Shown in pieces: positions 2,433 through 41,534 of a stretch of 41,856 bases of DNA (position 1 is its first letter; every line of letters starts with the position of its first letter). A model generated the notes under the pieces. That model was not told where the DNA came from. It ran no database searches and saw nothing but the letters and a program-made list of their open reading frames with translations. Origin of the DNA: a virus; the IMG/VR virus record IMGVR_UViG_3300020723_000139, positions 1-41,856 of that record; one strand, given 5' to 3'. A program made the translations under genes and the position numbers.

Positions 2433-2794
2433 AAGTAGCAATCAATACATGTTTCGGTGGGTTTGGTATTTCAAATGTAGCGTTTGAGAAATTGCTTGAG
2501 CGTAAGGGTATCGCATTCGATAAGGTGCCAGCAAAATGGCCAATTCGTGGTAACGACTCAGACTATTACAAAGCTGGTAGTCCACAATCTGATGCGACAT
2601 ATCTAAGTGAGTATGAATTCTATGAACAACGCAATGATCCAGATTTGATTGCAGTGATTGAAGAATTGGGTAAAGAAGCATGGGGTTTTGCAGCAGAACT
2701 AGCAATCGTTGATATTCCTGATGATGTCGAATGGCATATTCACGAGTACGATGGTCTTGAGCATGTAGCAGAAAATCATAGGACTTGTGGTTAA
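2429..2794 (+). CDS. conserved phage hypothetical protein
   Basis: This 121-residue acidic protein begins with KVAINTCFGGFGIS. That N-terminal signature is familiar from many phage genomes, always without a known function. The C-terminal half (VDIPDDVEWHIHEYDGLEHV) resembles the same family. No catalytic residues can be assigned. It overlaps DNA ligase by 4 nt and the radical SAM gene by 1 nt, and can be transcribed from the promoter at 2299-2327. Confidence 0.65.
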   Translation: MKVAINTCFGGFGISNVAFEKLLERKGIAFDKVPAKWPIRGNDSDYYKAGSPQSDATYLSEYEFYEQRNDPDLIAVIEELGKEAWGFAAELAIVDIPDDVEWHIHEYDGLEHVAENHRTCG

Positions 2795-4293
2795 TGATTG
2801 ATGCTGTTATTCTTAGTGGTGGTCAAGATATGCCAAACGACTACCCTAAGATACAAAGATCGCTTGGTCCATACAGGGTTGCTTCTGCTTTAGAAAAAGC
2901 AGGATACACTACATGTGTAATTGATTATATTCAGTATCTTTCAGTAGAAGAAATTATCAATGCTTTGAAAAATGTTTTAACACCTAATACTTTATGGGTT
3001 GGTATTTCTTCTACTTTTTTCTACTCACCATTAGCAAAGAAGGTTGGTCTTTCTAGGATGTACCAAAATATATCTTATGAAAAAATTTCTAAAGTATATG
3101 AATTTATTAAAGCGAACAGTAATGCTAAGATTGTTTTTGGTGGAGCATATGCCCTTCAAGCACACGCTGATCCGATGATTGATTATTACATTGCTAGTTA
3201 TGCTGATGTGACTGTTGTAGAATTAACTGATTTCCTTTCAGGTAAGAAAATATATCTTGAACATTCAACTGAGATTGATATTGGTGGAACTAAGTCTGTG
3301 TTGATTGATTCTGGTAAGTATAAAGAACCAGAAATGAATTCATTGGAAACCTTTTGGCATAAAAAAGAATACAACATATTACCAACCGAATCATTGCCTA
3401 TTGAATTTGCTAGAGGGTGTATTTTTAAATGCAAGTTTTGTAACTATCCCCTTCTTGGTAAAAAGAAAGGTACATACATTAGAGATATGTCTCAGGTTCG
3501 TGATGAGATAATTAAAGTGTGGGAAGAGAATGGAACTGATTCATTTTATATGACAGATGATACCTTCAATGATGATAATGATAAGATGGAAGAATTTCAT
3601 AAGTTGTTTACATCGTTGCCGTTCAAACCTAAGTTTAGCGCATTTCTTCGACTTGATTTGATTGATAGATTCCCGCATCAAGCAGATCTTCTTTTAGAAG
3701 CTGGTTTGATTGGTAACTTTTTTGGGATTGAATCATTCAATCATAAAAGTGCTAGAGCAATTGGTAAAGGTTTGCACCCAGATAGAATTAAGAAACGTCT
3801 AAACTGGGTGAGAGAAAAATGGGATGGTAAGGTTAATACTGTAGTAGGATTAATTGTTGGTTTACCGTATGATGATGAGAAGTATTTTAGAGAACTTGAA
3901 ACATATCTTATGTCTTCAGAATACCCTGCTCAGAGAACTGTTATTAATCCTCTGCATATTTTTGATAGGAGCAAAGGTGTTAATCTTTATGGTTCTGAGT
4001 TTTCAGTTAACTCAGAAGTCTATGGATATAAGTTTGATTCGAATGGTAGATGGTATCATGAAGAACAGGGTTTTGGTTTTGATGATATGATAAATGTTTC
4101 AAACTATTTTTCAGAATTGATGAGCAGTAAAAATAAAGTTAGTGGATTTGAGATGTTGACATATATGAATCTTGGTATTTCGTTGAAAGATATATTAACA
4201 TACACTGAAGATGAATTAATACAACGCTATGATATCCCAAAATTAAATAATGAAAAATTGACAATGTATAAACAAATGATTGGAGCAGTATAA
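2794..4293 (+). CDS. radical SAM protein with cobalamin-binding-like N-terminus
   Basis: I start this at the ATG at 2794, which overlaps the previous stop as TAATG; the upstream TTG at 2785 is less likely. The product has 499 residues. Residues 1-150 look like the Rossmann-type B12-binding domain that often precedes radical SAM cores, but no DxHxxG motif is visible. The cluster motif CIFKCKFC has cysteines at 209, 213 and 216, the canonical CxxxCxxC that binds [4Fe-4S] and S-adenosylmethionine. It is followed by a TIM-barrel-like region to about 420. The family performs radical methylations, thiolations and rearrangements. The substrate is unknown; in a phage replication block a nucleotide or tRNA substrate is a guess. 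Confidence 0.85.
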   Translation: MIDAVILSGGQDMPNDYPKIQRSLGPYRVASALEKAGYTTCVIDYIQYLSVEEIINALKNVLTPNTLWVGISSTFFYSPLAKKVGLSRMYQNISYEKISKVYEFIKANSNAKIVFGGAYALQAHADPMIDYYIASYADVTVVELTDFLSGKKIYLEHSTEIDIGGTKSVLIDSGKYKEPEMNSLETFWHKKEYNILPTESLPIEFARGCIFKCKFCNYPLLGKKKGTYIRDMSQVRDEIIKVWEENGTDSFYMTDDTFNDDNDKMEEFHKLFTSLPFKPKFSAFLRLDLIDRFPHQADLLLEAGLIGNFFGIESFNHKSARAIGKGLHPDRIKKRLNWVREKWDGKVNTVVGLIVGLPYDDEKYFRELETYLMSSEYPAQRTVINPLHIFDRSKGVNLYGSEFSVNSEVYGYKFDSNGRWYHEEQGFGFDDMINVSNYFSELMSSKNKVSGFEMLTYMNLGISLKDILTYTEDELIQRYDIPKLNNEKLTMYKQMIGAV

Positions 4294-6040: not shown

Positions 6041-8526
6041 TGGAATTTTATACCTCAGTAAACCCTATCGGAGATCGAATCTTTGTTAGAGGTGTTGAGA
6101 ATGGTAAACGCTATCAACGTAAGTTAGAGTTTAGTCCTACTCTTTATGTGACTGCCAAGAAACCCTCCAAGTGGAAGACACTGGAGGGAACATTCGTTGA
6201 TGAGATTAATCCAGGCACAATCAAAGATACCAGAGAATTTATTAAACGCTATGATGGTGTTGAAGGATTCGCTGTATATGGAAACTCAAACTATGCGTAT
6301 CAATACATAAGCGATAATTATCAGCATGATATCAATTGGGATATGGAACAGATTAAAGTGTTCACGATTGATATTGAAACTTCAACAGAGAATGGTTTCC
6401 CTGATATTAAATCAGCCAATGAAGAAATTCTTCTTATCACAGTTAAAGAACTTCAGACAAAACGTATTATTACTTTTGGAAGTAAAGCATATGTCAATCC
6501 ACGTGAAGATGTAATCTATGTTAACTGTAAGAATGAACAAAACCTACTAACCCAATTCCTAGAATTTTGGACTAAGAGCCATCCAGATGTTATCACTGGT
6601 TGGAATACTGACTTCTTTGATATGCCATATCTTATCCGTAGGATTGAGCGTGAACTTGGTGATGGCGAATCTAATAAGATGAGTCCATGGGGATATGTTA
6701 ATGAACGAAAGACTTTCATTAAAGGTAATGAAGAGATTCACTACGATATCGTTGGGATTGCTCAACTAGATTATCTTGAACTCTATAAGAAATATACATA
6801 TTCTAAACAGGAAAGTTATCGTTTGGATTATATTGCTGGTGAAGAACTTGGTGACAAGAAGAAAGTAAATCCAGGAGATTCATTTAAAGATTTCTATACT
6901 AATCACTGGCAGCAATTCGTTGATTATAATATTCATGACGTAGAGTTGGTTGATAAGTTAGAAGACAAGATGCGTCTTATCGAATTGCATTTGACCATGG
7001 CTTATAATGCCAAGATTAATTTCGAGGATGTTTATTCGCAGGTTCGCATGTGGGATACGATTATCTATAATCATCTACGTAAAAAAGGTATTGTTGTTCC
7101 TGCCAAGAGTCACTCAGGCAAAGATGCTCAATTTGAGGGTGCATATGTTAAAGATCCAATTATTGGTCTTCATAAATGGATGGCTTCTTTTGACTTGAAC
7201 TCATTGTATCCGCATTTGATTATGCAGTATAACATTAGTCCTGAAACTTTGACATCGGAAAAGATTAGCGTTACTGTTGATAAACTTTTGAATCAAGAAA
7301 TTGATACCACATATGTTAAGCAACGAGATCTTGCTTTGACTGCCAATGGATGGACTTATACTAAAGAGTTTAAAGGTTTCATGCCAGAGTTAATGGAACA
7401 GATGTATAAAAATCGTTCTAAGTTCAAGAAACAAATGCTTGCCATCCAACAAGAGTATGAAAAAGATAAGTCTAAGAAACAATTGCTGAAAGATATTTCT
7501 CGTTTGAATAATCTGCAGATGGCTATGAAGATTGCTTTGAACTCTGCTTATGGTGCAATGGGTAATCAGTATTTCCGTTACTTTGATATTCGTATGGCTG
7601 AGGGTATTACTACTTCTGGTCAGTTGTCTATTCGTTGGATGGCCAACAAGTTAAATGCCTTCATGAATAAAACATTGAAGACTGAAGGTAAAGATTATGT
7701 AGTTGCAATTGATACTGATTCAATCTACCTTACTCTTGAAACATTAGTTGAACAAACTTGCGCTGGCAAAACTGATGAACAGAAAATTAAATTCATGGAT
7801 AAAATCTGTGAAGATGTTTTCCAACCATTCATTGATTCAGGTTACCAAGAACTAGCAGACTATATGAATGCGTATAGTCAGAAGATGCAGATGAAGCGTG
7901 AGGTTCTAGCTGACAAAGGTATCTGGACTGCCAAGAAACGATATATTCTTAATGTGCATAATTCAGAGGGTGTTCAATATGAGAAACCTAAAATTAAAGT
8001 TATGGGTCTTGAAATGGTCAAGTCCTCTACTCCTGCAGTTATTCGTGATAAATTGCGAGATTCGATTGAGGTTATTCTTAAAGGAAATCAATCACATTTA
8101 CAGAACTACATATTAGAGTATCGTAAAGAGTTTGAGAAACTTCCTGTTGAAGAGATTGCGTTTCCTCGTGGTGTTAATGGTATGAAACAATACGCTGGTT
8201 CACCTATCTATTCTAAGGGAACACCAATTCATGTTCGTGGTGCTTTATTGTTTAATCACTATACTAAGAAGATGGGTCTTGATAAAAAGTATCAACCAAT
8301 TCGTGATGGTGATAAAATTCGATTTGTTTATGTTCGCAAACCAAATCCATTCCAAGAAGATGTTATTGCATTCAGTCAAGAGTTACCACCAGAGTTTGAA
8401 TTGAACTCCTACATAGATTATGATAAACAATTTGAAAAGGTATTTCTCGATGCCCTACAAATTATTATTGGTTCGCTTGGTTGGAATACATCAGAACAAA
8501 GTTCATTAGAGGATTTCTTTGGATGA
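6040..8526 (+). CDS. 43: family B DNA polymerase (gp43)
   Basis: This is the replicative DNA polymerase with 3'-5' proofreading. In order: Exo I FTIDIET (108-114; D111, E113), Exo II GWNTDFFD near 187, Exo III YNIHDVELVD, polymerase motif A DLNSLYPHL near 385, motif B KIALNSAYGAMGN near 498, motif C AIDTDSIY near 557 and the KKRY motif near 631. At 828 residues it is slightly shorter than T4 gp43 (898). The C-terminus SSLEDFFG (821-828) resembles the clamp-binding tail of T4-type polymerases. The same SSLEDFF ends the TET/JBP-like protein at 12694-14010. It overlaps its neighbours by 1 and 4 nt. Confidence 0.96.
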   Translation: MEFYTSVNPIGDRIFVRGVENGKRYQRKLEFSPTLYVTAKKPSKWKTLEGTFVDEINPGTIKDTREFIKRYDGVEGFAVYGNSNYAYQYISDNYQHDINWDMEQIKVFTIDIETSTENGFPDIKSANEEILLITVKELQTKRIITFGSKAYVNPREDVIYVNCKNEQNLLTQFLEFWTKSHPDVITGWNTDFFDMPYLIRRIERELGDGESNKMSPWGYVNERKTFIKGNEEIHYDIVGIAQLDYLELYKKYTYSKQESYRLDYIAGEELGDKKKVNPGDSFKDFYTNHWQQFVDYNIHDVELVDKLEDKMRLIELHLTMAYNAKINFEDVYSQVRMWDTIIYNHLRKKGIVVPAKSHSGKDAQFEGAYVKDPIIGLHKWMASFDLNSLYPHLIMQYNISPETLTSEKISVTVDKLLNQEIDTTYVKQRDLALTANGWTYTKEFKGFMPELMEQMYKNRSKFKKQMLAIQQEYEKDKSKKQLLKDISRLNNLQMAMKIALNSAYGAMGNQYFRYFDIRMAEGITTSGQLSIRWMANKLNAFMNKTLKTEGKDYVVAIDTDSIYLTLETLVEQTCAGKTDEQKIKFMDKICEDVFQPFIDSGYQELADYMNAYSQKMQMKREVLADKGIWTAKKRYILNVHNSEGVQYEKPKIKVMGLEMVKSSTPAVIRDKLRDSIEVILKGNQSHLQNYILEYRKEFEKLPVEEIAFPRGVNGMKQYAGSPIYSKGTPIHVRGALLFNHYTKKMGLDKKYQPIRDGDKIRFVYVRKPNPFQEDVIAFSQELPPEFELNSYIDYDKQFEKVFLDALQIIIGSLGWNTSEQSSLEDFFG

Positions 8527-9134
8527 GATATATTTTAAATAAAGTAAAAAATTTTCAGCCAGTTCTTTCCGTAGATAATATTTTTACCAAAGAAGAATTG
8601 GATAAAATTAATTCACAACTATCTTCTGTTAATACGACAGCAGCAATTGCTGGGTGGGGTTCATCCATTACTACAGATGAAGAAATGAATGCAGCTGTTT
8701 TACATAGTCATCAAGCAAGAAAATCTAATGTATATTGGTTAGATAATTCAGAGTATGATTGGATTTATGATAAACTTCAGATTGCTATTAATCATGTAAA
8801 TCTAACAAACTTTAATAAAGTTTTATACTCAATTGAATCATTACAGTATACAGAATATGATTCTAAGTATAATGGTTTTTATTCTTCTCATGCTGATGCT
8901 TATGAAGATAATCCACCTCTGAATCGATCGCTATCGTTTTCTCTTCAAATATCAAAACCTGAAGATTATACTGGAGGAGATGTAAAAATTTATTATCAGG
9001 ATAAAATTTTTACAGCAAATAAGGCATATGGTACAGTTACATTTTTTGATTCAAAACTATTGCATGAAGTAACACCTGTAGTTTCTGGGTTTAGAAAAAG
9101 TTTAGTTGGTTGGATTATTGGTCCAAGAATATGA
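8523..9134 (+). CDS. 2OG-Fe(II) oxygenase, prolyl-hydroxylase-like
   Basis: I start this at the ATG at 8523, overlapping the polymerase stop as ATGA. The product has 203 residues. The double-stranded beta-helix metal site is visible: HxD at H123/D125 (in SSHADA), distal H181 (LLHEVTP) and the 2-oxoglutarate-binding R191 (GFRKS), with TGGDV between them. Such enzymes hydroxylate protein, nucleic acid or small-molecule substrates using Fe(II), O2 and 2-oxoglutarate. The layout is closest to prolyl 4-hydroxylase/PKHD-type enzymes. The substrate is unknown. It sits between DNA polymerase and a second oxygenase. Confidence 0.8.
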   Translation: MRYILNKVKNFQPVLSVDNIFTKEELDKINSQLSSVNTTAAIAGWGSSITTDEEMNAAVLHSHQARKSNVYWLDNSEYDWIYDKLQIAINHVNLTNFNKVLYSIESLQYTEYDSKYNGFYSSHADAYEDNPPLNRSLSFSLQISKPEDYTGGDVKIYYQDKIFTANKAYGTVTFFDSKLLHEVTPVVSGFRKSLVGWIIGPRI

Positions 9135-9679
9135 ACAATATTAGGATTATTAAAACTGGGATTAATGTTTCAAAGATTTTGAAACAACTAAAAGATCATC
9201 CTGACGATTGGATGGCTCAACGAAATATCGAGGGTGCTCAATCTTTAATCGATAGAGGATATGATAATATCCCAGTTGGTAATCTTCAGTTGGTAATCGG
9301 TGCTGTAGAAAAAGCTGAAGACTTTGTAGGAGACAGCGAGATTTGCGTACCAACTCCAGCAATCAAACATCACACAGAGATAGTAGGATTTCTAAAAAGA
9401 AATTTTAAGAAATTCAGTAGATGCGGTTTCCTTTCTCTTGCTTCAGGTGAACACGTTGGGCTACATATTGATGAGGGAACTTATTATCTTACAAGAGATC
9501 GTTATCATTTATCCATTCAAGGAAAATATAGATATTTTGTAGGCGACGAATCAGTTATTGTTGAACCTGGAACTTTACTTTGGTTCAATAACAAACTTAT
9601 GCACGGGACTGAAAACATTGGTGATTGCACTCGGATTACTTTTGTATTTGATGTTCCACATTCTAAACAAAATCCATAG
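9131..9679 (+). CDS. 2OG oxygenase, aspartyl/asparaginyl hydroxylase-like
   Basis: The start at 9131 overlaps the previous stop (ATGA). The product has 182 residues. HxD is H112/D114 in GLHIDEG, distal H158 lies in LMHGTENIG, and a following arginine near 168 lies in TRITF. The GEHVGLHIDEG...EPGTLLWFNN layout resembles aspartyl/asparaginyl beta-hydroxylase-type cupins. The substrate is unknown. Together with the preceding gene it forms a tandem oxygenase pair between gp43 and thioredoxin. Confidence 0.75.
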   Translation: MNNIRIIKTGINVSKILKQLKDHPDDWMAQRNIEGAQSLIDRGYDNIPVGNLQLVIGAVEKAEDFVGDSEICVPTPAIKHHTEIVGFLKRNFKKFSRCGFLSLASGEHVGLHIDEGTYYLTRDRYHLSIQGKYRYFVGDESVIVEPGTLLWFNNKLMHGTENIGDCTRITFVFDVPHSKQNP

Positions 9680-12693: not shown

Positions 12694-14010
12694 ATGGTAA
12701 AAGTAATTGTAGCTGAACAGAAACACAATTGTGAAGATCTTCTTGGTAAGTTTGTTGACGAATCACATTATGATCATCTTATCGAAGAAGATACTGATGT
12801 TTATATGCCACCACAATTTGGTGAAGATCCAATCTCAGAGAAACGAATTGTATTAAAGTTTAGGAAAAACTATTTTAGTAAAGAACAACAAGATGCCGCA
12901 TATGTCGGACTTAGAGAAGCAGCGATTCGCACAGAGAATCGTGGACTTGCTTCTGGTATCAAAGATGGCATTCTTGCCACAACTGAAGGTCGCGAGTGGG
13001 TCACAAACTACCAACAGGAAATGATGGATGCGTTGCTAAAGAATCGAAACTCTGCTCTTGATGAAGAAGATGTTATTGATGTTATTCGTGCCAAGTATCC
13101 TACTGAAACTGATAAGCGTATGGCAGGTGGTAGTGGTAAAAACAACGTATGGGTTATCTCACGTTTCCGTGGAACTAAGTTTGATTTTGAAGCATGGCTA
13201 GATACTATCAAACCACTTGGTCGTCAGAATCGTGCTGAGGCATGTGAAGATGTTATGGAAATGATTAGTACCACTACCTATGGTACTGCAGTTAATTCTG
13301 GTATCGCTGGTTGGTTCGATCGTTATCCTCGCATTCCTTATGGTCGTGCCACTTCCTATACTCGTGACAACTTTGATAAGTTTGTAATGTCATATCCATT
13401 CCTGCAGAATCTTGCTGAAGGATTTAAAAATCTTTTACCTCAACGCTATGCTGCACAAATGAAAGCAGCAAACAAACTAGATCCAAGGTTCTTAGTTCCA
13501 GGAACACCATTCACAACAGTAACTGTTAATAAAACATTTAGAACTGCGGCACATAGAGATGCTGGTGATTTGAATGAGGGTTTATCTAATCTGTTAACAT
13601 TATCCAATGATGGTAATTACACTGGTGGATATTTGATTGCTCCTGAGTATCGAATTGCAGTTAATCCACGTCCAGGAGATTTGCTTCTAATCAATAATCA
13701 CGAAGTTATGCATGGCAATACACCTATTGTTTGCGCAGAAGGTTCTGAGCGTATATCATTGGTTGTGTATTTCCGTGAGAAAATGTTAGAACTTGGTTCT
13801 TTTGAATATGAAGACTGTCGTTATAATTTTGTTGAACATCGTAGACGTAATCACGAGCATCCAATGTGGCAAAAACTTTGGAATGGTGTATCAGAATCTA
13901 TGTGGACTAGTCAAGAATGGTATGATTACTGCGAAGAAAAACTTGGTCGTGAGGAATTAATGAAATATCATCCAGAAGCAAATTCTTCTTCACTTGAGGA
14001 TTTCTTTTAA
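12694..14010 (+). CDS. TET/JBP-family 5-methylpyrimidine (thymine/5mC) dioxygenase
   Basis: This 438-residue Fe(II)/2OG dioxygenase has a C-terminal half with the TET/JBP layout: VNKTFRTAAHRDAGD (H287, D289), then YTGGYLIAPEY, VNPRPGDLLLINNHEVMHGNTP (distal H340) and ERISLVVYFRE (R353). Eukaryotic JBP and phage TET enzymes with this pattern oxidise the methyl group of thymine or 5-methylcytosine in DNA. Whether this one makes 5hmU or 5hmC cannot be told from sequence. The N-terminal 240 residues are uncharacterised. The last seven residues, SSLEDFF, equal the tail of DNA polymerase, suggesting sliding-clamp binding. It has its own ribosome site (AGGAG, about 12684-12688) and heads the modification island. 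Confidence 0.78.
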   Translation: MVKVIVAEQKHNCEDLLGKFVDESHYDHLIEEDTDVYMPPQFGEDPISEKRIVLKFRKNYFSKEQQDAAYVGLREAAIRTENRGLASGIKDGILATTEGREWVTNYQQEMMDALLKNRNSALDEEDVIDVIRAKYPTETDKRMAGGSGKNNVWVISRFRGTKFDFEAWLDTIKPLGRQNRAEACEDVMEMISTTTYGTAVNSGIAGWFDRYPRIPYGRATSYTRDNFDKFVMSYPFLQNLAEGFKNLLPQRYAAQMKAANKLDPRFLVPGTPFTTVTVNKTFRTAAHRDAGDLNEGLSNLLTLSNDGNYTGGYLIAPEYRIAVNPRPGDLLLINNHEVMHGNTPIVCAEGSERISLVVYFREKMLELGSFEYEDCRYNFVEHRRRNHEHPMWQKLWNGVSESMWTSQEWYDYCEEKLGREELMKYHPEANSSSLEDFF

Positions 14011-14714
14011 TGTGTAGCGTTATTGGTGCTTTGATTCAGAATCCTACTGAAAAGGATTTTGAATCTATCCGTAAAGTATTTCTTGAGTCAAAGATTCGAG
14101 GAATGCACGCAACTGGTTTATCTTATATTAAAGATAATAAGATTATTACATTTAAAGAAGCAGTTCCTGCAGATAAATTTATTCATTTAGATAATTTAGA
14201 GGAGATGGTCAATGACGATGGTAATCTTTACCTTATTGGTCACTGTAGATATTCTACTAGCGATTTATTGTATAATCAGCCGATAGCAAGCGAAACCCAT
14301 TCTATTGTTCATAATGGAGTTATCACTCAAGAACTTCCAGAGAACTGGAGTAAGATATTTCATTATCCTTGTGAAACAAAGAATGATTCTGAATTAGTTT
14401 TACATTCTGATAATGCTCTTGGTGAATATCCAGATGCATCTATGGCAGTTTGTGAGTTGTCACTAAAAAAAGAACTTACTGTTTTTAGAAATGGTAAACG
14501 TCCATTATATTTGACTTCTTTAGTAAATGGAGTTATAATTACTTCTACTGCAGATATTCCTAAACGTGCAGGTATTAGAATGCCAGCAGTAGAAGTGCCA
14601 ATGAATACTTACCTCACGTTTGATTCAAATATGACAATGAATGTTAATCTTGTTAAGACTAACAAACCAGATTTACAAAAGGTAAACTATGAGACTGAAG
14701 AAATATCCAACTGA
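14010..14714 (+). CDS. class II glutamine amidotransferase
   Basis: This 234-residue N-terminal-nucleophile (Ntn) hydrolase fold stands alone as a single domain. Cys2 (MCSVIGALI) is the nucleophile, exposed after Met removal. GHCRYST, IVHNGVI and TKNDSE are the other class II signatures, as in PurF, GlmS and AsnB. The enzyme releases ammonia from glutamine for a partner synthetase. No synthetase domain is fused; the next gene encodes an amidoligase and overlaps it by 26 nt, so the two probably work as a pair. A promoter (14511-14539) lies inside it. Confidence 0.85.
   Translation: MCSVIGALIQNPTEKDFESIRKVFLESKIRGMHATGLSYIKDNKIITFKEAVPADKFIHLDNLEEMVNDDGNLYLIGHCRYSTSDLLYNQPIASETHSIVHNGVITQELPENWSKIFHYPCETKNDSELVLHSDNALGEYPDASMAVCELSLKKELTVFRNGKRPLYLTSLVNGVIITSTADIPKRAGIRMPAVEVPMNTYLTFDSNMTMNVNLVKTNKPDLQKVNYETEEISN
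14511..14539 (+). promoter_or_regulatory. sigma70 promoter upstream of the amidoligase gene
   Basis: TTGACT (14511-14516) and TATAAT (14534-14539) have a 17-bp spacer and lie inside the amidotransferase gene, about 150 bp before the amidoligase start. Confidence 0.55.
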
Positions 14715-15570
14715 TAAATTTACTTACGGAATGGAGATAGAGTGGGGTGATGTGCCTCGCTCTTTTTCAATTCCAGAACATCTCGGAACTTGGGAACACT
14801 CAGAACGAGATATTATTAACTTAAGAGAGCCATATCAATATGTCTGCGCTGACCCACTTGGTGAATCTCCTCCAGTCGGTGGGGAAATTAATACTAAACC
14901 GACTAAGACTTGGGAAGAGCAGGTTGATCGCTACTTTGAACTCAAACAGTTATTTGAGAAGGAAGGACACCCACCTACTGTTGGTGCTACTGCTCATACT
15001 CATATTCATTGCCGTGTACCGAATCTCCGAAATGATATCAATGCTCTGAAGCGTTTGACAAAGTATATTAAAGAAAACCAACACCAAGCAGTTGAACACG
15101 TCTATGGTTACTTTGAACATAATCAAATGAAAGGTGCCAAAGGCGCAAAAATGTATTTGAAGTTTGATGGTGGTCGAACTCTGCCTGACTATATGGCTGA
15201 TAACATTATTAATCTAGCGACTGACTTTGATTCATTCATTAAGATGCACGCTGCAGGTAAAGATGGAGTATCAATGGGTCGCCCATTCCGCTACGCTATT
15301 AATATGTACGCACTGAAGCATATCGATACGGTAGAGTTTAGATTGTTCCGTGGTACAATGGATCGTACGGAACTTGAATCGTGTTTCCGATTTGTTCAAG
15401 ACTTTCTTGATGCTGCGTTGAATACTGGTGAATCAGTAGTACAATTAATTTCAAATAATAATTATAAATTCCCTCCAATGATTTGGGATCTTCATCAGTT
15501 TATTGGTTGGGAGAAAACAAAACATCCAGAAGATCGTGGAGAAAAAGTAAGAACATATGTTGAAGTATAA
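14689..15570 (+). CDS. amidoligase (COOH-NH2 ligase, glutamine-synthetase-like fold)
   Basis: This 293-residue protein carries the signatures of the phage/bacterial putative amidoligase family: YGMEIEW at 13-19 and GGEIN at 64-68 (metal-binding acidic residues), AHTHIHCRVP near 105 and NMYALKHIDTVEFRLFRGT near 206-224. The family is related to glutamine synthetase and gamma-glutamylcysteine synthetase and joins a carboxylate to an amine with ATP. Known gene neighbourhoods pair it with class II amidotransferases, as here. AAAAGG precedes the ATG at good spacing. The substrate is unknown. In this island, adding an amino acid or amine to a modified base is one option and tagging a peptide is another. 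Confidence 0.78.
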   Translation: MRLKKYPTDKFTYGMEIEWGDVPRSFSIPEHLGTWEHSERDIINLREPYQYVCADPLGESPPVGGEINTKPTKTWEEQVDRYFELKQLFEKEGHPPTVGATAHTHIHCRVPNLRNDINALKRLTKYIKENQHQAVEHVYGYFEHNQMKGAKGAKMYLKFDGGRTLPDYMADNIINLATDFDSFIKMHAAGKDGVSMGRPFRYAINMYALKHIDTVEFRLFRGTMDRTELESCFRFVQDFLDAALNTGESVVQLISNNNYKFPPMIWDLHQFIGWEKTKHPEDRGEKVRTYVEV

Positions 15571-16063
15571 AGTAATAGAAGATTGTGTATCAAGAGATTT
15601 GCAAAACAAATATTTGGAGATCTCAGAAGGTATACATTGGACCTATAATAAAACTTGTATACATCCTTTAGATATTCCAATTCAGAATGAAACTACATTT
15701 GATGTTGGACAACTAACATGTAGAGTTCCAGAACACGATTATAATTTGTTCCTCCCTCTTCTAGATCATTTTGAACAATACTCTAAAATTAATCGCATAA
15801 AATATAATTTGTTATGGAGATGTTCTGAAACAAATAATAGACATACAAGTTTACATAAAGATGGTGATGACCAATGTATGAGTGCAGTATATTATGTTAA
15901 TGATTCTGATGGAGATACCATCATAATTGATGGTGATGATGAATATAGAATTAAACCAAAGAAGGGATCTATTCTAATATTTCCTGCGCATCTAATTCAT
16001 GCCTCATCTAACCCATCAAATGCGTTTGAGAGAATTTGTATAAATTTGGTAGTAACAAAATGA
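15557..16063 (+). CDS. 2OG-Fe(II) oxygenase
   Basis: This 168-residue protein has HxD at H100/D102 (SLHKDGDDQ), distal H148 (HLIHASSNP) and R159 (ERICIN). IKPKKGSILIFPA between them is the usual strand before the distal histidine. The small single-domain form resembles phage prolyl-hydroxylase-like oxygenases. It overlaps the amidoligase by 14 nt and the acetyltransferase by 4 nt, placing it firmly within the modification island. The substrate is unknown. Confidence 0.78.
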   Translation: MLKYKVIEDCVSRDLQNKYLEISEGIHWTYNKTCIHPLDIPIQNETTFDVGQLTCRVPEHDYNLFLPLLDHFEQYSKINRIKYNLLWRCSETNNRHTSLHKDGDDQCMSAVYYVNDSDGDTIIIDGDDEYRIKPKKGSILIFPAHLIHASSNPSNAFERICINLVVTK

Positions 16064-16611
16064 AATTACTAAATTGCCCACGTGCGGATTTTATCGCAGC
16101 AATAACTACAGACAAAGAAGATAACTTTGCTAAGACGTTTGTTGCCAAAGCAGATATGCAAGACCAATGGGATTATTGTATTGGCGCATTCGATGGTAAT
16201 GAATTAACTGCTGCAATTATCACCACAATATCAAAGACCAAACCTCATGTTGCAAACCTTCAACTGTTACATACATTTGCAAAACATAGAGGTAAAGGTT
16301 CAGCTCGATTACTTTGTGAAGATTCATTGAAGCGAGCAAGAGCCACTGGTGCTACATACTTCAGAGTATCTTCCGAGAAGACGGCAGTTGGTTTCTATGA
16401 ACGATTGGGTTTTAAGTTTTGGGGTACTCAAAAGAGTGGTTGCCAATTATCCATATTCAGGATAAATGGAGATAATTATTCAGAAGCTGATTACGACTAC
16501 TCCGATACAATTATCAACAAGGCTGTTAATCGCAAAGGTAAAGGTGGCTGTGTAACTCTGTTTAGTCTTGCAGAGGATCAGAAACAACTTGACTTTCATT
16601 CATTTTTGTAG
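16060..16611 (+). CDS. GNAT-family N-acetyltransferase
   Basis: I choose the ATG at 16060 (ATGA overlap). The product has 183 residues. The acetyl-CoA-binding motif A is LLHTFAKHRGKGSARLL, followed by ATYFRVSSEKTAVGFYERLGF, the typical motif B region. A C-terminal extension of about 45 residues ends in QLDFHSFL. GNAT enzymes acetylate primary amines, and in phages a member (Mu Mom-like) can modify DNA bases. Its place in the island makes a modified base or an amine precursor a candidate substrate, which is inference. A sigma70 promoter is embedded in its 3' end. Confidence 0.82.
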   Translation: MKLLNCPRADFIAAITTDKEDNFAKTFVAKADMQDQWDYCIGAFDGNELTAAIITTISKTKPHVANLQLLHTFAKHRGKGSARLLCEDSLKRARATGATYFRVSSEKTAVGFYERLGFKFWGTQKSGCQLSIFRINGDNYSEADYDYSDTIINKAVNRKGKGGCVTLFSLAEDQKQLDFHSFL

Positions 16612-16617
16612 TATAAT
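16589..16617 (+). promoter_or_regulatory. sigma70 promoter
   Basis: TTGACT (16589-16594) and TATAAT (16612-16617) have a 17-bp spacer. The -35 box lies in the acetyltransferase coding sequence and the -10 box just after its stop. Transcription should begin near 16624, 13 nt before the next ATG at 16637. Confidence 0.7.
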
Positions 16618-16636
16618 ATAATTTTGGGAACACACT

Positions 16637-16957
16637 ATGACACACTTGAGAGAAGAAAATTTGGCAGTTGTTACAAGAAGAATTGCTGAGGATGCATGGG
16701 TAACTAATCTTGATGGAACAAAATCAAGAGCAGTATCTTGGTGCAAATGCTGTAGGGTTCATAAACCTTTAAGTGCATTTTACTTAAAATCAAAGAGTAC
16801 TAGAAAACATAAAAATGATGTTCGAGGATATTGTTGCATTTGTTTTGATGAACAAAACAAAAAAGCAAAAGAAATTCGTGAAGAACGAAATGCAGTCAAA
16901 CAATTGAATATTCTGATCAATGAATTAAAGATAGAATTTGAGACTGCGAATCAGTAA
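16637..16957 (+). CDS. small zinc-finger protein
   Basis: This basic 106-residue protein contains CKCC and, about 30 residues later, CCIC. Each forms a CxxC knuckle with KPLSAFY between them, like the zinc-binding part of phage HNH/endonuclease VII-type proteins. No HNH catalytic residues are present. The C-terminal 40 residues are a charged helix, probably a coiled coil. It is the first gene after a strong promoter and overlaps the next oxygenase by 1 nt. DNA binding is likely but unproven. Confidence 0.6.
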   Translation: MTHLREENLAVVTRRIAEDAWVTNLDGTKSRAVSWCKCCRVHKPLSAFYLKSKSTRKHKNDVRGYCCICFDEQNKKAKEIREERNAVKQLNILINELKIEFETANQ

Positions 16958-17520
16958 TGAATTTCGAACATATTTTTCCATCAGTTATAGGTTATGAGAT
17001 TAATAAAGATTTAACAGATAACATTTTGCTTATTGCAAAAGAATATCTTTCTGATGATTCTAAGATAACCTATGAATGGAATTATAAAAACACATATGGT
17101 AATATCTTAATAGATGATAAATTAAATTTTGTATATGAGAAGATAGCTGAACTATCAAATACATATTTGATAACCTCTAATATTAAACCACCAGAAAAAT
17201 TAGAAATACAACTTTTCTTTAGTGAAATATACGGAAACGACACTCATGTTAAACACTCTCATCCAGGAGCATTACTTTCTGGATTATTTTATTTGACTGT
17301 TCCAGATGATGCTGCTCCAATTATTTTTTATGATACGAGCCCACATTATGATTATATTCCGTATAATGCATTAAATCCATCTGATGACCGTAGGCAATAT
17401 ATTATAAATCCAAAAGAAGGTATGGTTCTAATATGGAATTCTTGGTACCAGCATGAAGTTCCAAAATCAAATAGTATTAAACCAAGAATTACAGCAGTGT
17501 TTAATGTTGCTAGAAAATAA
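16957..17520 (+). CDS. 2OG-Fe(II) oxygenase (Oxy_5/TIGR02466-like)
   Basis: This 187-residue protein has VKHSHPGALLSGLFYLTVP, the hallmark of the 2OG-FeII_Oxy_5 family, with an HxH pair (H100, H102) instead of HxD. Distal H166 lies in WYQHEVP and R177 in KPRITAVFNV. The substrate of the family is not established. It overlaps the pyrophosphorylase-like gene by 1 nt. Confidence 0.8.
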   Translation: MNFEHIFPSVIGYEINKDLTDNILLIAKEYLSDDSKITYEWNYKNTYGNILIDDKLNFVYEKIAELSNTYLITSNIKPPEKLEIQLFFSEIYGNDTHVKHSHPGALLSGLFYLTVPDDAAPIIFYDTSPHYDYIPYNALNPSDDRRQYIINPKEGMVLIWNSWYQHEVPKSNSIKPRITAVFNVARK

Positions 17521-18536
17521 TGGATTACAGACAACCTCAAAATAATAGAGAAGCGTTCATTCGCTGGTACGCATGGTCATTGAAGTATGATGACTGTGAT
17601 CCAGCTGTTTGGTGCACGAACTATCTCAATAAGCGTTACGAGCATAATGATGAACAACGTCTTTGGCTCGCTTGGCTTTACGGTAACACTTATCAACTAC
17701 CAACTGCGTGGGTATTGATGAATGAATTTCCTGATTATGAATTAGCAACAGTTGATAGAATTACGCAGTGGAACTCAACAAATTATAAACGATTACGTTA
17801 CCAAACTGATACCAAGTGGAACAAGGGGCATCTCCCTGCCATGTTTGCTTCATATCAGCAATTTATTGGTAACAAAACTCAACGAGAAAGAATGGAAGGG
17901 TTTTATGGAGACAATGAAGAGACAAACTTTGATAACCTGTGGGAAAGCGTTAAGTCTGGGCTGCATAAGTTTGGTCGCTATTCCACTTGGTTTTATCTTC
18001 AGCATCTTAAGCATACCGCTGGTATTCTTATCAGCCCTACTAGTCTCATGCTGGATGATTATGATGGCTCTCGGTCTCATCGTAATGGATTATTATGCGC
18101 CCTCGGCAGACATTACGATATGGATAGAAAACTCACTGAACAAGAGTATGCAACTCTTGAGTCAGAAGCCAGATCTATTCTCATCGAAACCAAAGATAGA
18201 TTCCCAGATTTGGAAACGCAAATAGATTTTTTTACAATGGAAACCTGTCTGTGTTCGTTTAAGAAAATCTTTAGAGCACATCATGGACGTTACCTTGGTT
18301 ACTACTTAGATCGTCAGGCTGAAGAGATTATTAAAGCAGAGGGTGATGGTTGGTATGGTATTGATTGGGATGTTCTGTGGCAAGCACGTGAAGAAACTAT
18401 TGACTTACGTCTAGATCACAAAAGAGGAATCGATAAAGAAAAGTTTCCTGCATTTATAAATTCAGGTAAAATAGAAAACTTGGATTGGATGTTTGATGAT
18501 GAAGAACCTATGTTAATTGGATTGGAGAATTTTTAA
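17520..18536 (+). CDS. probable alpha-glutamyl/putrescinyl-thymine pyrophosphorylase-family protein
   Basis: This 338-residue helical protein is rich in Trp and Tyr. It carries FGRYSTWFYLQHL near 152-164, then SLMLDDYDGSRSHRNGL and FFTMETCLCSFKKIFRAHHGRYLGYY. I recall near-identical motifs in cyanophage proteins annotated as alpha-glutamyl/putrescinyl thymine pyrophosphorylase. That is a glycosylase-fold family proposed to replace the pyrophosphate on a phosphorylated 5-hydroxymethyluracil with an amine. The assignment is from memory of the family, not from catalytic residues. Neighbouring TET/JBP dioxygenase, amidoligase and P-loop kinase genes support it. It joins both neighbours by 1-nt overlaps. 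Confidence 0.58.
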   Translation: MDYRQPQNNREAFIRWYAWSLKYDDCDPAVWCTNYLNKRYEHNDEQRLWLAWLYGNTYQLPTAWVLMNEFPDYELATVDRITQWNSTNYKRLRYQTDTKWNKGHLPAMFASYQQFIGNKTQRERMEGFYGDNEETNFDNLWESVKSGLHKFGRYSTWFYLQHLKHTAGILISPTSLMLDDYDGSRSHRNGLLCALGRHYDMDRKLTEQEYATLESEARSILIETKDRFPDLETQIDFFTMETCLCSFKKIFRAHHGRYLGYYLDRQAEEIIKAEGDGWYGIDWDVLWQAREETIDLRLDHKRGIDKEKFPAFINSGKIENLDWMFDDEEPMLIGLENF

Positions 18537-18988
18537 TGGCTATTACTAAAGGTCAAATGACTGGACTTACTGGTGCTATGTATGAAGATATGAATCCTGC
18601 TAGTGTTTCAATTTCAAATACTGGTGCTATTACTGGAACTATTATTGGAGCAGCAGGTAGTACGATTACTACTGGAACAGGAATAAGTTCTATCTCAATT
18701 CGAACAAGTGCTGATGAAATCTTTGATAGATATTCTTTAAATGAGTTTCTTGTTGAGCATCGTGTTCAAGAATTTGAACTTATGAAACTCCGTGAAACCA
18801 CTGTTGACTATGCTGATGTTATTAAAAATAATCTAGCAAAGACTGCTTCTAAAGAAATTATCAAGAAAATGACCTTCACAAAGAAACATGAGATTGATAG
18901 TGATACTCATTCATTCCGTGGACGTGTTTGGGTATTTACGAAAGATGAACTAAACAAAATGATTGAGGAGATCAGAAATGGCATTTGA
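18536..18988 (+). CDS. conserved phage hypothetical protein
   Basis: This 150-residue protein has a first 60 residues that are Gly/Ser/Thr/Ile-rich and look like an extended or beta-type linker (TGAITGTIIGAAGSTITTG). From 65 on it is helical with a charged, conserved-looking segment (VQEFELMKLRETTVDYADVI). From memory, similar proteins occur in marine T4-like phages without known function. It overlaps the kinase gene by 11 nt. Confidence 0.55.
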   Translation: MAITKGQMTGLTGAMYEDMNPASVSISNTGAITGTIIGAAGSTITTGTGISSISIRTSADEIFDRYSLNEFLVEHRVQEFELMKLRETTVDYADVIKNNLAKTASKEIIKKMTFTKKHEIDSDTHSFRGRVWVFTKDELNKMIEEIRNGI

Positions 18989-19586
18989 AGAACGTATCGG
19001 CGCAACTGATATTATTACATTCGAAAGAACTACCATGGAAACAAAAGAACGAAAGATAGTTGCTGTCGGTGGATCTCCTGGAACTGGAAAGACTACGTTA
19101 TTCCGTAAATATATGGAAGATAAACAGTGGATCGGAGTTGAGCCAGCAAAATTAGTATCAACAATGTATAATACCGAACGAGATCTTTATATCCTTGGTA
19201 AATACGAAGAGGGTGAAACCTTTGCTGGAACCGATCGCCTTTCTATGGCTGTTCAACCACCTCTTCAAGAATGGGTCGCTTCCCATAACTGCAATATCCT
19301 TTTCGAGGGAGATCGGGTTTTCAACCAATCATTCCTAGAGTTCTGCATGGGTCTCCCAAATACCAAGCTAGAAGTGGTATTTCTAAAGGCTCCCAAAGAT
19401 ATTTTAGAACAACGCTATAAAGATCGTGGATCTGACCAGTCAGAACAATTCCTAAGAGGAAGAGAAACTAAATATAGTAACTTGATGTCTAATTTTGAAC
19501 TTATGCCATATATTACTGAGTTTGTAAACACTAACTTAGAGGAGCAGGGGAAGGTTCTTGCATTTTTGGAGAAGCAGTTTAGTTAA
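18978..19586 (+). CDS. P-loop kinase, candidate 5-hydroxymethylpyrimidine DNA kinase
   Basis: I choose the ATG at 18978 because GAGGAG (18965-18970) lies seven bases upstream. The 202-residue product has Walker A GSPGTGKT at 32-39 and a Walker B-like strand NCNILFEGDRVF. LEQRYKDRGSDQSEQFLRGRETKY resembles the lid region of nucleoside and polynucleotide kinases. By context it may be the DNA 5-hydroxymethyl kinase that activates hydroxymethylated bases for the pyrophosphorylase-like protein. A nucleotide kinase is the alternative. The fold is well supported; the substrate is inferred. Confidence 0.7.
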   Translation: MAFEERIGATDIITFERTTMETKERKIVAVGGSPGTGKTTLFRKYMEDKQWIGVEPAKLVSTMYNTERDLYILGKYEEGETFAGTDRLSMAVQPPLQEWVASHNCNILFEGDRVFNQSFLEFCMGLPNTKLEVVFLKAPKDILEQRYKDRGSDQSEQFLRGRETKYSNLMSNFELMPYITEFVNTNLEEQGKVLAFLEKQFS

Positions 19587-34713: not shown

Positions 34714-35244
34714 ATGTTGAATATTGGTGACGTTTATGAGATAGATACATTTCTTACTGAATCTGAAAGAGAAATCGTTGATAATGAATTTGAGAATCCT
34801 AGTTGGGAATTGAAGGGTGGTGAACTTGCATTAAGATCTCATGGAATTCCAATTAAATCTTTTCTGTATAAAGAATTACAAGGAACTAAAATTGAAGATC
34901 TATTCAAATCTAAAGTTGAAGGTATTTTAAACACTAAAATAAAAACATCAAGGATTTATGGAAATGGTCAAGCCCATGGACAATGTGGTTTCTTACACTA
35001 TGATGATAATGATGCAAACTCCCTTTCTGGAAGTTTAGTTTATTATGTTCATAAACAATGGCCACCATTCTTTGGTGGACATCTTATTTTTACTGAAAAC
35101 GATACTGTTGTAAAGTCAGTATTCCCATATCCAAATTCCGCAGTTCTTTTTAATTCTGCTATGCAACACTGCCCATTGGAACCAACAATCTACTGTTTAG
35201 ACATGAGAATAAGTATAGCATATAAATTTAAGGTAATAGAATGA
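34714..35244 (+). CDS. 2OG-Fe(II) oxygenase
   Basis: This 176-residue protein has HxD at H95/D97 (FLHYDDND), distal H152 (MQHCPLEPT) and R165 (DMRISIAYKF), with FFGGHLIF and SAVLFNSA strands between. The layout resembles phage prolyl-4-hydroxylase-like enzymes. The substrate is unknown. It overlaps nrdB by 4 nt, so it is co-translated with the reductase. Confidence 0.75.
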   Translation: MLNIGDVYEIDTFLTESEREIVDNEFENPSWELKGGELALRSHGIPIKSFLYKELQGTKIEDLFKSKVEGILNTKIKTSRIYGNGQAHGQCGFLHYDDNDANSLSGSLVYYVHKQWPPFFGGHLIFTENDTVVKSVFPYPNSAVLFNSAMQHCPLEPTIYCLDMRISIAYKFKVIE

Positions 35245-40727: not shown

Positions 40728-41534
40728 ATGGTTAAAAGAATGAAAGGAAACGGCGAATTTCCGAGAAAATTATTCGCAATTCTAGCATTGACTGCAATGT
40801 CAATGTCGGGTTATGCTGCTGATAATAGCATTTATATTGATCAGTCTGGCGATAATAGTACGATTAATATTACCCAAGATGGTGCTGGTAACACGGTAAG
40901 AGGATTACCTGGAATTGGTACTAGTAGTCAAACTCCTGCAAAAATTTGGGGAGACAATAATACCGTAACTATCGATCAAATTGGTAGTGGCAACATGTTA
41001 AGGTTTGGTATTGATACTACTACAGGTGGAAATGGTACACCTAGCATTCGTTACAGCGTAACAGGTAATAATGCTGACGCAACAATTAAAAGTATGAATC
41101 CAGGATCAACTAATGATAGTCCTATAATTGATGTTCAACAAGTTGGAAATTTTGCTTTCTTGAATATTAATCAAACAGGTGCTGGTCAAAATAATAGTAT
41201 TACTGCATTGCAGAGTGGTGGTAATAATAACAGTTTAACTGTTAATCAAAGCAGTGATACTAATGCTACAGTTTCAGTTAATCAAACTGGTGGCGGTGGA
41301 AATACTACTACAATTAATCAAAGTCAGGGAACTAATTCTATTTCTTTAGTAACAGTTGGTGCATCTAACGCAACTACAATTAATCAAACTGGTGATAACC
41401 AAGCTAGCATTAATATTACTGGTTCTAGTAATACAACTTCACTAACACAAACTAATGTAAGTGGTGGTAATAATATATTTAATTATACTGGTGTTGGTTC
41501 TGGAAATAGTGTAACAGTTTTACAGAACAAATAA
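40728..41534 (+). CDS. curlin-repeat (CsgA/CsgB-like) secreted protein
   Basis: This 268-residue protein has a signal peptide (FPRKLFAILALTAMSMSGYA, then ADN). Tandem degenerate repeats of the curlin type follow, N-x-[IV]-x-[IV]-x-Q-x-G-x-x-N: IYIDQSGDNSTINITQDGAGN, VTIDQIGSGN, LNINQTGAGQN, TTINQTGDNQ and others, about eight to ten units. The start could be 40728 or the ATG at 40740; neither has a good ribosome site. It is the likely export substrate of the CsgG/CsgF pair. Amyloid formation is expected from the repeats but not shown. Confidence 0.78.
   Translation: MVKRMKGNGEFPRKLFAILALTAMSMSGYAADNSIYIDQSGDNSTINITQDGAGNTVRGLPGIGTSSQTPAKIWGDNNTVTIDQIGSGNMLRFGIDTTTGGNGTPSIRYSVTGNNADATIKSMNPGSTNDSPIIDVQQVGNFAFLNINQTGAGQNNSITALQSGGNNNSLTVNQSSDTNATVSVNQTGGGGNTTTINQSQGTNSISLVTVGASNATTINQTGDNQASINITGSSNTTSLTQTNVSGGNNIFNYTGVGSGNSVTVLQNK

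Follow-up and report, generated by a model that had tools for sequence, protein, structure and literature searches.

Several described phage systems are close to the locus analysed here. The operon of phages PaMx11 and M6 encodes PUGT (gp46), an FAD enzyme (gp47), an acetyltransferase (gp48), a kinase (gp49), an HMUDK helical protein (gp50) and a TS-like protein (gp51), and the hydroxymethyl group is made by the TS-like enzyme on dUMP. In PaMx11-type phages an FAD lyase frees 5-aminomethyl-dU from N-glycyl-thymidine. The aGPT-Pplase2 thymidine hypermodification of Salmonella phage ViI and the Ackermannviridae uses a TS-like hydroxymethylase together with a PLP enzyme; the Pfam family ADDT (amino acid:DNA transferase) is the renamed aGPT-Pplase2 family. 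Other systems include a TET dioxygenase: Microbacterium phage Kozie has the set TET-ADDT-DAO-KIN, and a ParB-TET-aGPT-Pplase2-5hmU kinase set has been published for Rhodococcus phage Tonitrus (PMC11955845).

The window, a 41.9 kb fragment of IMG/VR record IMGVR_UViG_3300020723_000139 rather than a full genome, contains an island (12694-19586) with intact genes for a TET/JBP dioxygenase, GAT2, a GS-like amidoligase, a GNAT, an ADDT and a P-loop kinase, inside a T4-like replication block (helicase, UvsX, polymerase). An initial annotation had proposed that this was a DNA base hypermodification island. Re-reading of the sequence bore out all of its ORF positions; its gene list was without 16637-16957 and 18536-18988, and it assigned the amidotransferase no role. 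The features are as follows:

2785..4293, + strand, radical SAM protein, possible outlying pathway member (Radical_SAM 2.7e-15)
12694..14010, + strand, TET/JBP 2OG-Fe(II) dioxygenase, TET (Pfam Tet_JBP 1.5e-24)
14010..14714, + strand, stand-alone class II glutamine amidotransferase, GAT2 (GATase_6 1.2e-7)
14689..15570, + strand, GS-like amidoligase, AMIDL (Amidoligase_2 0.011, below cut-off)
15557..16063, + strand, 2OG-Fe(II) oxygenase, passenger and not core (2OG-FeII_Oxy_3 8e-7)
16036..16611, + strand, GNAT acetyltransferase, predicted amine acylation (Acetyltransf_10 1.5e-11)
16637..16957, + strand, small HNH/endonuclease-VII-like protein, passenger (PHROG 2255 7e-5)
16957..17520, + strand, 2OG-Fe(II) oxygenase, passenger of variable position (2OG-FeII_Oxy_5 9e-18)
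17520..18536, + strand, amino acid:DNA transferase family protein, ADDT (Pfam ADDT 3.8e-22)
18536..18988, + strand, U150, 150 aa, overlapping the kinase start (family searches)
18978..19586 (alternative start 18963), + strand, P-loop kinase, KIN (Ploopntkinase3 8.6e-7)

The cassette resembles the PaMx11/M6 operon in its kinase, transferase and amine-decorating order: the ADDT fold is similar to PUGT, KIN is homologous to the operon kinases, relatives of AMIDL occur in sister operons, and acetyltransferase action would be the last step. It differs in that the hydroxymethyl group would be made by TET on DNA, GAT2 replaces the FAD enzyme, an amidoligase is added and no HMUDK helical protein was seen in the cassette. 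ADDT relatives in ViI/Ackermannviridae shared about 28% identity across 93% of the length, but neither a ViI-type TS-like hydroxymethylase nor a PLP enzyme was seen in the cassette. Caulobacter phage Cr30, with a T4-like genome, has TET, ADDT and KIN proteins 43%, 29% and 37% identical to those of the window; unlike the window it has no GAT2, its genes are spread over about 9 kb, and it carries ThyA and a TAGT-like gene. Tonitrus and Kozie share the three core steps (TET, ADDT and kinase) with the window. Kozie, in contrast to the window cassette, has an FAD enzyme, and GAT2, amidoligase and GNAT, all present here, are not described for either phage. The suggestion in the initial annotation that the complete combination could be a new pathway thus holds for one part only: the TET-ADDT-kinase core has a precedent in Tonitrus (PMC11955845), whereas the GAT2/amidoligase branch is undescribed within the literature searched. 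The new base that the annotation also suggested stands as a prediction.

Analyses of the three core proteins were consistent with successive action on the thymine methyl group. TET has the HxD...H...R signature of the Tet_JBP domain, and the residues originally assigned to it (H287/D289/H340/R353) were correct and invariant across 36 relatives. Its profile matched TET2 among known structures (5e-6), and the protein is predicted to convert thymine in DNA to 5-hydroxymethyluracil. KIN, whose Walker A motif is invariant among relatives, matched the HMUDK-type 5-hmdU DNA kinases (hhalign 97.4%, 1.3e-11) with similarity extending past the P-loop; its own Pfam match is Ploopntkinase3, not HMUDK_HMUD1. 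KIN is predicted to be a 5-hydroxymethyl-dU DNA kinase. ADDT scored 79.6 bits against PF18724 (cut-off 26.2), and the first-ranked Foldseek match of its AlphaFold model (pLDDT 77) was 8z2m/8z2n, a 5-phosphomethyl-dU glycinyltransferase (prob 1.00, E 3.4e-3, TM 0.54/0.62). Since hhalign of ADDT against PUGT profiles was below significance (3.4%, E 0.013), the link between the two rests on this moderate fold match and on PUGT relatives and ADDT belonging to one Pfam family. ADDT is predicted to swap the phosphate of 5-phosphomethyl-dU for a nitrogen nucleophile. The fold and profile searches placed neither 17520-18536 nor the kinase in unrelated families. A PDB sequence search returned no convincing relative of ADDT, GAT2, AMIDL or KIN, an NCBIfam search added nothing specific, and a nucleotide-level search of the whole island against a phage collection gave no matches. 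A scan of genome contigs found no ADDT relatives and so gave no clue to host or prophage.

The linkage of these genes was assessed in a census of 65 distinct related TETs whose entire interval had been sequenced; these are from related phages, and the counts are not independent events. A decorating module followed TET in 65/65, and no TET was without a decorator. In 46 of the 65 it was GAT2...ADDT...KIN (GAT2 and KIN in 46/46), in 18 it was made up of glycosyltransferases, and in one it comprised two ADDT-like genes and KIN. The 18 glycosyltransferase-type intervals contained no ADDT, GAT2 or KIN. One swap partner is Pfam TAGT, the 'TET-associated glycosyltransferase'; in such phages, as here, an orthologous TET lies between the helicase and U231, with a glycosyltransferase where the window has its GAT2-ADDT-KIN module. 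The TET tree requires the module to have changed at least 14 times, and in at least 7 of these cases between the ADDT and glycosyltransferase types. If this is true, the TET locus is a socket for exchangeable glycosyltransferase or aminating modules.

The module swap, the ADDT fold match, the KIN profile match, the occurrence of AMIDL relatives in thymidine operons and the lack of C5-MTases in related records are independent lines of support for a base hypermodification island and for the proposed series of a post-replicative TET hydroxymethylation, a kinase and displacement by a nitrogen nucleophile. We consider the order TET-KIN-ADDT highly likely, and it is likely that the cassette as a whole carries out thymine hypermodification starting on finished phage DNA. 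TET would oxidise the thymine 5-methyl group in phage DNA to hydroxymethyl, and KIN would phosphorylate it to 5-phosphomethyl-dU. ADDT would then flip the base out so that a nitrogen nucleophile could displace the phosphate; with GAT2 splitting glutamine and passing ammonia to ADDT, 5-aminomethyl-dU would arise in one step. AMIDL would form an amide bond between the 5-aminomethyl-dU amine and a carboxylate, probably that of an amino acid, GNAT would acetylate the amine or the added residue, and the resulting phage DNA would be shielded from restriction. If this reading is true, phages can make hypermodified thymine wholly on finished DNA: TET takes over from the hydroxymethylase that acts on nucleotides, and the glutaminase and amide-bond maker would be the helpers missing from the textbook version of the pathway.

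GAT2 is a predicted ammonia source and part of the cassette core. Its class is the classical ammonia supplier, and its N-terminal Cys nucleophile (C2) and glutamine-site residues (R80, N102-G103, D126) were invariant in 35 relatives. Among the AMIDL loci, GAT2 (44 loci) and DAO (10 loci) never occurred together. DAO was absent from the island, with none above cut-off in 7 GAT2-cassette relatives; a 165 kb glycosyltransferase-type relative had one DAO-family match. As GAT2 is present in every ADDT cassette at this slot and never alongside the FAD lyase, the co-occurrence suggests that GAT2 hands glutamine-derived ammonia to ADDT, a proposal to which we give an even chance, and the ADDT nucleophile may be ammonia instead of an amino acid.

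AMIDL scored 16.1 bits against Pfam Amidoligase_2, under the cut-off of 22, and the top PDB folds for its model were glutamine synthetases/GmaS, each individually weak (E 0.04 or worse). Its motifs (E16/E18, GGEINT 64-69, H105/H107, R201, E216/R218) were invariant in 18 relatives, and it aligned with the amidoligase of phage Simon (hhalign 1e-42). AMIDL relatives are found inside canonical, thymidylate-synthase-type thymidine-hypermodification operons: Simon and its relatives have the order PUGT-DAO-AMIDL-LMWP-HMUDK-HMUDKhel-TS, which is the PaMx11 order with AMIDL-LMWP replacing the acetyltransferase gp48. In these operons the FAD lyase (DAO) occupies the position of the cassette's GAT2, and in a hybrid locus (L277) GAT2-ADDT-AMIDL-LMWP is joined to HMUDK/HMUDKhel/TS. 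This company bears out the earlier view of the amidoligase and acetyltransferase as amine decorators, and tips us somewhat toward AMIDL acting on a base-linked amine. AMIDL is absent from 16/46 ADDT cassettes and is therefore optional.

The best-surviving alternative is that, as in PaMx11 or ViI, ADDT adds an amino acid, either glycine or serine, that GAT2 and AMIDL then amidate its free carboxylate in the manner of asparagine synthetase, and that GNAT caps the amine. The ADDT fold match is a glycinyltransferase, the ammonia-supplying class of GAT2 and the likely carboxylate-amine ligase activity of AMIDL would suit such a pair, and the two genes overlap (14689-14714) and adjoin in other phages too. 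Against this, the 16 cassettes without AMIDL retain GAT2, and AMIDL occurs without GAT2 in PUGT-DAO operons, indicating that AMIDL does not require it; GAT2 tracks ADDT rather than AMIDL. We regard this alternative as unlikely, with some real weight. The preferred reading in its full form, in which a DNA aminase that depends on glutamine and a DNA-base amidoligase, both behind a TET socket, build an amino-acid side chain held to the base by an amide bond, is tentative and falls a little short of an even chance. Neither activity has been described previously, as far as the literature was searched; if real, the glutaminase-coupled DNA aminase and DNA-base amidoligase would be new DNA-acting activities, useful as DNA-labelling tools and for grasping phage restriction evasion.

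A second alternative is that the DNA is modified by TET-ADDT-KIN only, with GAT2-AMIDL-GNAT a neighboring metabolite or peptide/protein-modifying set. Such a role has been proposed for other phage GAT-II/amidoligase genes; LUZ24-like Pseudomonas phages carry GAT2 relatives, and the amidoligases of one podovirus are accompanied by ATP-grasp and gamma-glutamyl cyclotransferase genes. However, the strict partition of GAT2 (46/46 ADDT cassettes, 0/18 glycosyltransferase versions of the slot), the AMIDL-LMWP pair in the acetyltransferase slot of TS-type operons and an LMWP-KIN fusion (locus L263) make this improbable.

The substrate base is very probably thymine, judging from gene content. A search of 24 related records (up to 247 kb), with working positive controls, turned up no C5-cytosine methyltransferase. 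Most relatives have ThyX and not ThyA, a TS-like dUMP hydroxymethylase was absent from TET-type relatives up to 247 kb (the window itself being a fragment), and TET and TS were found together in 0/62 AMIDL loci. In Cr30, ThyA lies beside TET, ADDT and KIN, and TET and TS are thus not always alternatives. On a cytosine route, TET would convert 5-methylcytosine to 5hmC, to be decorated by the kinase, ADDT, GAT2 and AMIDL. Some phage TETs reportedly use 5mC as substrate, the TET-associated TAGT glycosyltransferases are swap partners at this slot, and in Melnitz phages TET and a KIN relative are accompanied by an HhaI-type MTase, so that the KIN relative may act in a cytosine pathway. The lack of C5-MTases in the 24 records, which disfavors any route dependent on one, and the presence of ADDT, KIN and AMIDL relatives in thymidine operons render the cytosine route quite improbable. 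As a cultured Caulobacter phage with the TET-ADDT-KIN core, Cr30 opens the thymine question to direct test.

That the genes are ordinary replication-module neighbors without joint function, or a decayed island, is scarcely credible despite the T4-like replication block around them, given the conserved synteny, the invariant catalytic residues and the purifying selection on the core genes (dN/dS about 0.07-0.27), for which neither linkage loss nor catalytic-residue loss was seen.

The remaining genes were less constant. The GNAT gene has a likelier start at the ATG at 16060, and its slot was occupied in all 46 ADDT cassettes, by a GNAT, by a member of a second GNAT family or by a protein resembling LMW phosphatases. 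The initial annotation had listed two further 2OG oxygenases in the island, but their sporadic occurrence does not support them as pathway members: same-place relatives of 15557-16063 were seen only in a few close contigs, and a relative of 16957-17520 was present in 6/46 ADDT and 1/18 glycosyltransferase cassettes. The HNH gene 16637-16957 (5/46 ADDT cassettes) was rejected along with both on the same grounds. A ParB-like c1 gene and the c15, c16, c19 and c20 genes were sporadic among loci. U150 gave no significant family in Pfam and PHROG searches; it is fast evolving and has no strict tie to ADDT (29/46 ADDT cassettes, 1/18 glycosyltransferase ones). The cassette genes are common across metagenomic phage contigs. 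Outside the island, the radical SAM protein at 2785-4293 shares 47% identity with a radical SAM/B12-binding protein located within other cassettes; it occurs only with ADDT-type loci, with none in glycosyltransferase-type loci, and may belong to the pathway.

The virus record was linear (41,856 bases) and encoded T4-like replication proteins (both ribonucleotide reductase subunits, DNA ligase, exonuclease, DNA polymerase, UvsX-like recombinase, DnaB-like helicase and primase) and, at 40728-41534, a phage protein with curlin repeats (Pfam Curlin_rpt, 1.3e-7). Immediately 3' of the helicase gene, and on the same strand, was a run of mainly overlapping genes, for which the ORFs and domain calls agreed with the gene list of the initial annotation:

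12694-14010, helicase strand, TET/JBP dioxygenase (TET)
14010-14714, helicase strand, class II glutamine amidotransferase (GAT2)
14689-15570, helicase strand, amidoligase (AMIDL)
15557-16063, helicase strand, first 2OG oxygenase
16036-16611, helicase strand, acetyltransferase (GNAT)
16637-16957, helicase strand, small HNH-like protein
16957-17520, helicase strand, second 2OG oxygenase
17520-18536, helicase strand, Pfam amino acid:DNA transferase family protein (ADDT)
18536-18988, helicase strand, 150-aa protein (U150)
18978-19586, helicase strand, P-loop kinase (KIN)

Three more 2OG-type oxygenases were encoded in the window (8481-9134, 9110-9679 and 34714-35244; two 2OG-FeII_Oxy_3 and one Asp/Arg hydroxylase-like), for a total of six with TET.

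The TET residues H287, D289, H340 and R353 were unchanged across 36 relatives, the AMIDL motifs (E16/E18, GGEINT, H105/H107, R201, E216 and R218) were kept in 18/18, and KIN retained its Walker A motif. GAT2 residues C2, R80, N102-G103 and D126, kept in 35/35, are those expected for a working class II glutaminase, the predicted activity. The core genes were under purifying selection (dN/dS 0.07-0.27), with U150 evolving faster (0.21-0.38).

To compare what follows TET, IMG/VR loci with relatives of TET (80), ADDT (80) or GAT2 (28, the sets overlapping) were gathered, and genes were called and clustered from TET to the next conserved gene, U231. In these related phages, some represented by contig fragments, 65 distinct TETs had a complete interval and none was bare of a decorating module. 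An ADDT cassette followed 46, a glycosyltransferase 18 (ten of GT1 type, four matching the Pfam family named "TET-Associated Glycosyltransferase" (TAGT), and four presumed, with no Pfam match), and two ADDT-like genes plus KIN the remaining one. GAT2 and KIN were present in all 46 ADDT cassettes, and ADDT, GAT2 and KIN were absent from the 18 glycosyltransferase-type intervals. The cassettes took three forms: 23 had AMIDL with GNAT, as in the window, 16 lacked AMIDL and had a second GNAT family, and seven paired AMIDL with a low-molecular-weight-phosphatase-like protein, LMWP. On a maximum likelihood TET tree (quick method, no bootstrap) module type required at least 14 changes, and in seven or more of these an ADDT type and a glycosyltransferase type replaced one another. 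Such swaps behind one TET are expected if both modules share a substrate, the TET-made hydroxymethyl base; a 2013 prediction reportedly held that these bases serve as starting points. Four loci (L224, L243, L249 and L261) carried a TAGT glycosyltransferase and an ADDT cassette within one cluster, and some phages may thus have both decorations. The first and second 2OG oxygenases, like the HNH-like protein, occurred sporadically among related cassettes and were rejected as core components.

The ADDT AlphaFold model (pLDDT 77, pTM 0.80) best matched, in the PDB, the 5-phosphomethyl-2'-deoxyuridine glycinyltransferase (PUGT) of PaMx11 (8z2m: probability 1.00, E 3.4e-3, TM 0.54/0.62), followed far more weakly by AGOG-type DNA glycosylases. 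Direct profile comparison of the ADDT and PUGT clades, both within Pfam ADDT, gave no significant match. KIN aligned with kinases encoded in canonical thymidine operons (97.4%, E 1.3e-11), and the match extended past the P-loop into GKYE...GTD / GHYE...GCD and LFEG stretches. KIN relatives in mycobacteriophages were annotated as adenylate kinase, terminase small subunit or HicA-like toxin; that of Mycobacterium phage Rinkes (L189 1-5506) lay downstream of ParB and deazaguanine genes.

Among 50,697 phage records searched by tblastn, at the threshold used, AMIDL relatives were identified only in phage Simon and Vibrio phage 2.275.O. The gene order in Simon was PUGT (E 1e-60 to 8z2m), an FAD enzyme (DAO), AMIDL, LMWP, a 5-hmdU-DNA-kinase-like protein (HMUDK), its helical partner (HMUDKhel) and a thymidylate-synthase-like gene (TS). 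PaMx11 has the identical order, with PUGT and FAD proteins 40-42% identical to those of Simon, but carries the acetyltransferase gp48 in the AMIDL-LMWP slot. In PaMx11, glycine is added and then cleaved by the FAD enzyme to give 5-aminomethyl-dU, which is then acetylated. In Vibrio phage 2.275.O (L192 7896-12156) the AMIDL relative and a GAT2-like protein adjoined 7-deazaguanine genes, which suggests that amidoligases also occur in another kind of DNA modification.

A broader scan identified 62 distinct AMIDL loci, most with one of two layouts, TET-GAT2-AMIDL-LMWP-ADDT-KIN or PUGT-DAO-AMIDL-LMWP-HMUDK-HMUDKhel-TS. Across these 62, DAO (10 loci) never co-occurred with GAT2 (44 loci), nor did PUGT with GAT2, ADDT with DAO, or TET with TS. 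In one hybrid (L277 6420-16796, IMGVR_UViG_3300046517_000320), GAT2-ADDT-AMIDL-LMWP was followed by HMUDK-HMUDKhel-TS in place of TET and KIN, and in another locus (L263 3184-4257) LMWP and KIN were fused in a single 358-aa ORF. Based on these gene arrangements, the blocks that supply the hydroxymethyl group (TET or TS) and the amine (GAT2 and ADDT, or PUGT and DAO) appear to be interchangeable, and AMIDL appears to come after the amine step. Outside the AMIDL set the blocks are not always exclusive, as phage Cr30 combines TET, ADDT, KIN and ThyA.

The gene arrangements across the AMIDL loci led us to propose a route in which TET would convert T to 5-hydroxymethyluracil, KIN would phosphorylate this to 5-phosphomethyl-dU, ADDT would use GAT2-derived ammonia to form 5-aminomethyl-dU, AMIDL would form an amide bond, and GNAT would acetylate. 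The main rival has ADDT attach an amino acid whose carboxylate is amidated by GAT2 and AMIDL together; it is weakened by each occurring without the other, GAT2 without AMIDL in 16/46 cassettes and AMIDL without GAT2 in PUGT operons. As for the amide-forming step of the proposed route, the top fold matches of the AMIDL model were glutamine synthetases and GmaS, which converts methylamine to gamma-glutamylmethylamide; at E 0.04 and worse, this modeled likeness is a hint only.

In the open-licence literature, no report was found in which thymidine hypermodification was linked to GAT2 or to an amidoligase, and it is plausible that the cassette holds new chemistry. The set of TET, aGPT-Pplase2 and 5hmU kinase is already known, from Rhodococcus phage Tonitrus (PMC11955845).

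With regard to the base modified, no C5-cytosine methyltransferase was detected in 13 relatives, of which ten were IMG/VR contigs (62-174 kb) and three the complete phages DLP6, Cr30 and C48C1, while the control genomes were positive. Nor was one detected in 11 additional contigs with AMIDL, which reached 247 kb. The majority of relatives had ThyX without ThyA, and so could make thymidylate yet had no visible nucleotide-level hydroxymethylase. Methylophilales phage Melnitz (L188 2466-6546) encoded consecutively an HhaI-type methylase, a distant TET relative, a 427-aa protein and a KIN relative, a row that appears to be the cytosine equivalent of the window's pathway. TET homologues in the GenBank records of DLP6 and Cr30 were labeled "SNF2 DNA repair protein", which masks the family.

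Lastly, a radical SAM protein (window 2785-4293) shared 47% identity with a radical SAM/B12-binding protein that other cassettes contain, and was seen in ADDT-type loci only. It may thus perform further side-chain tailoring in some phages.
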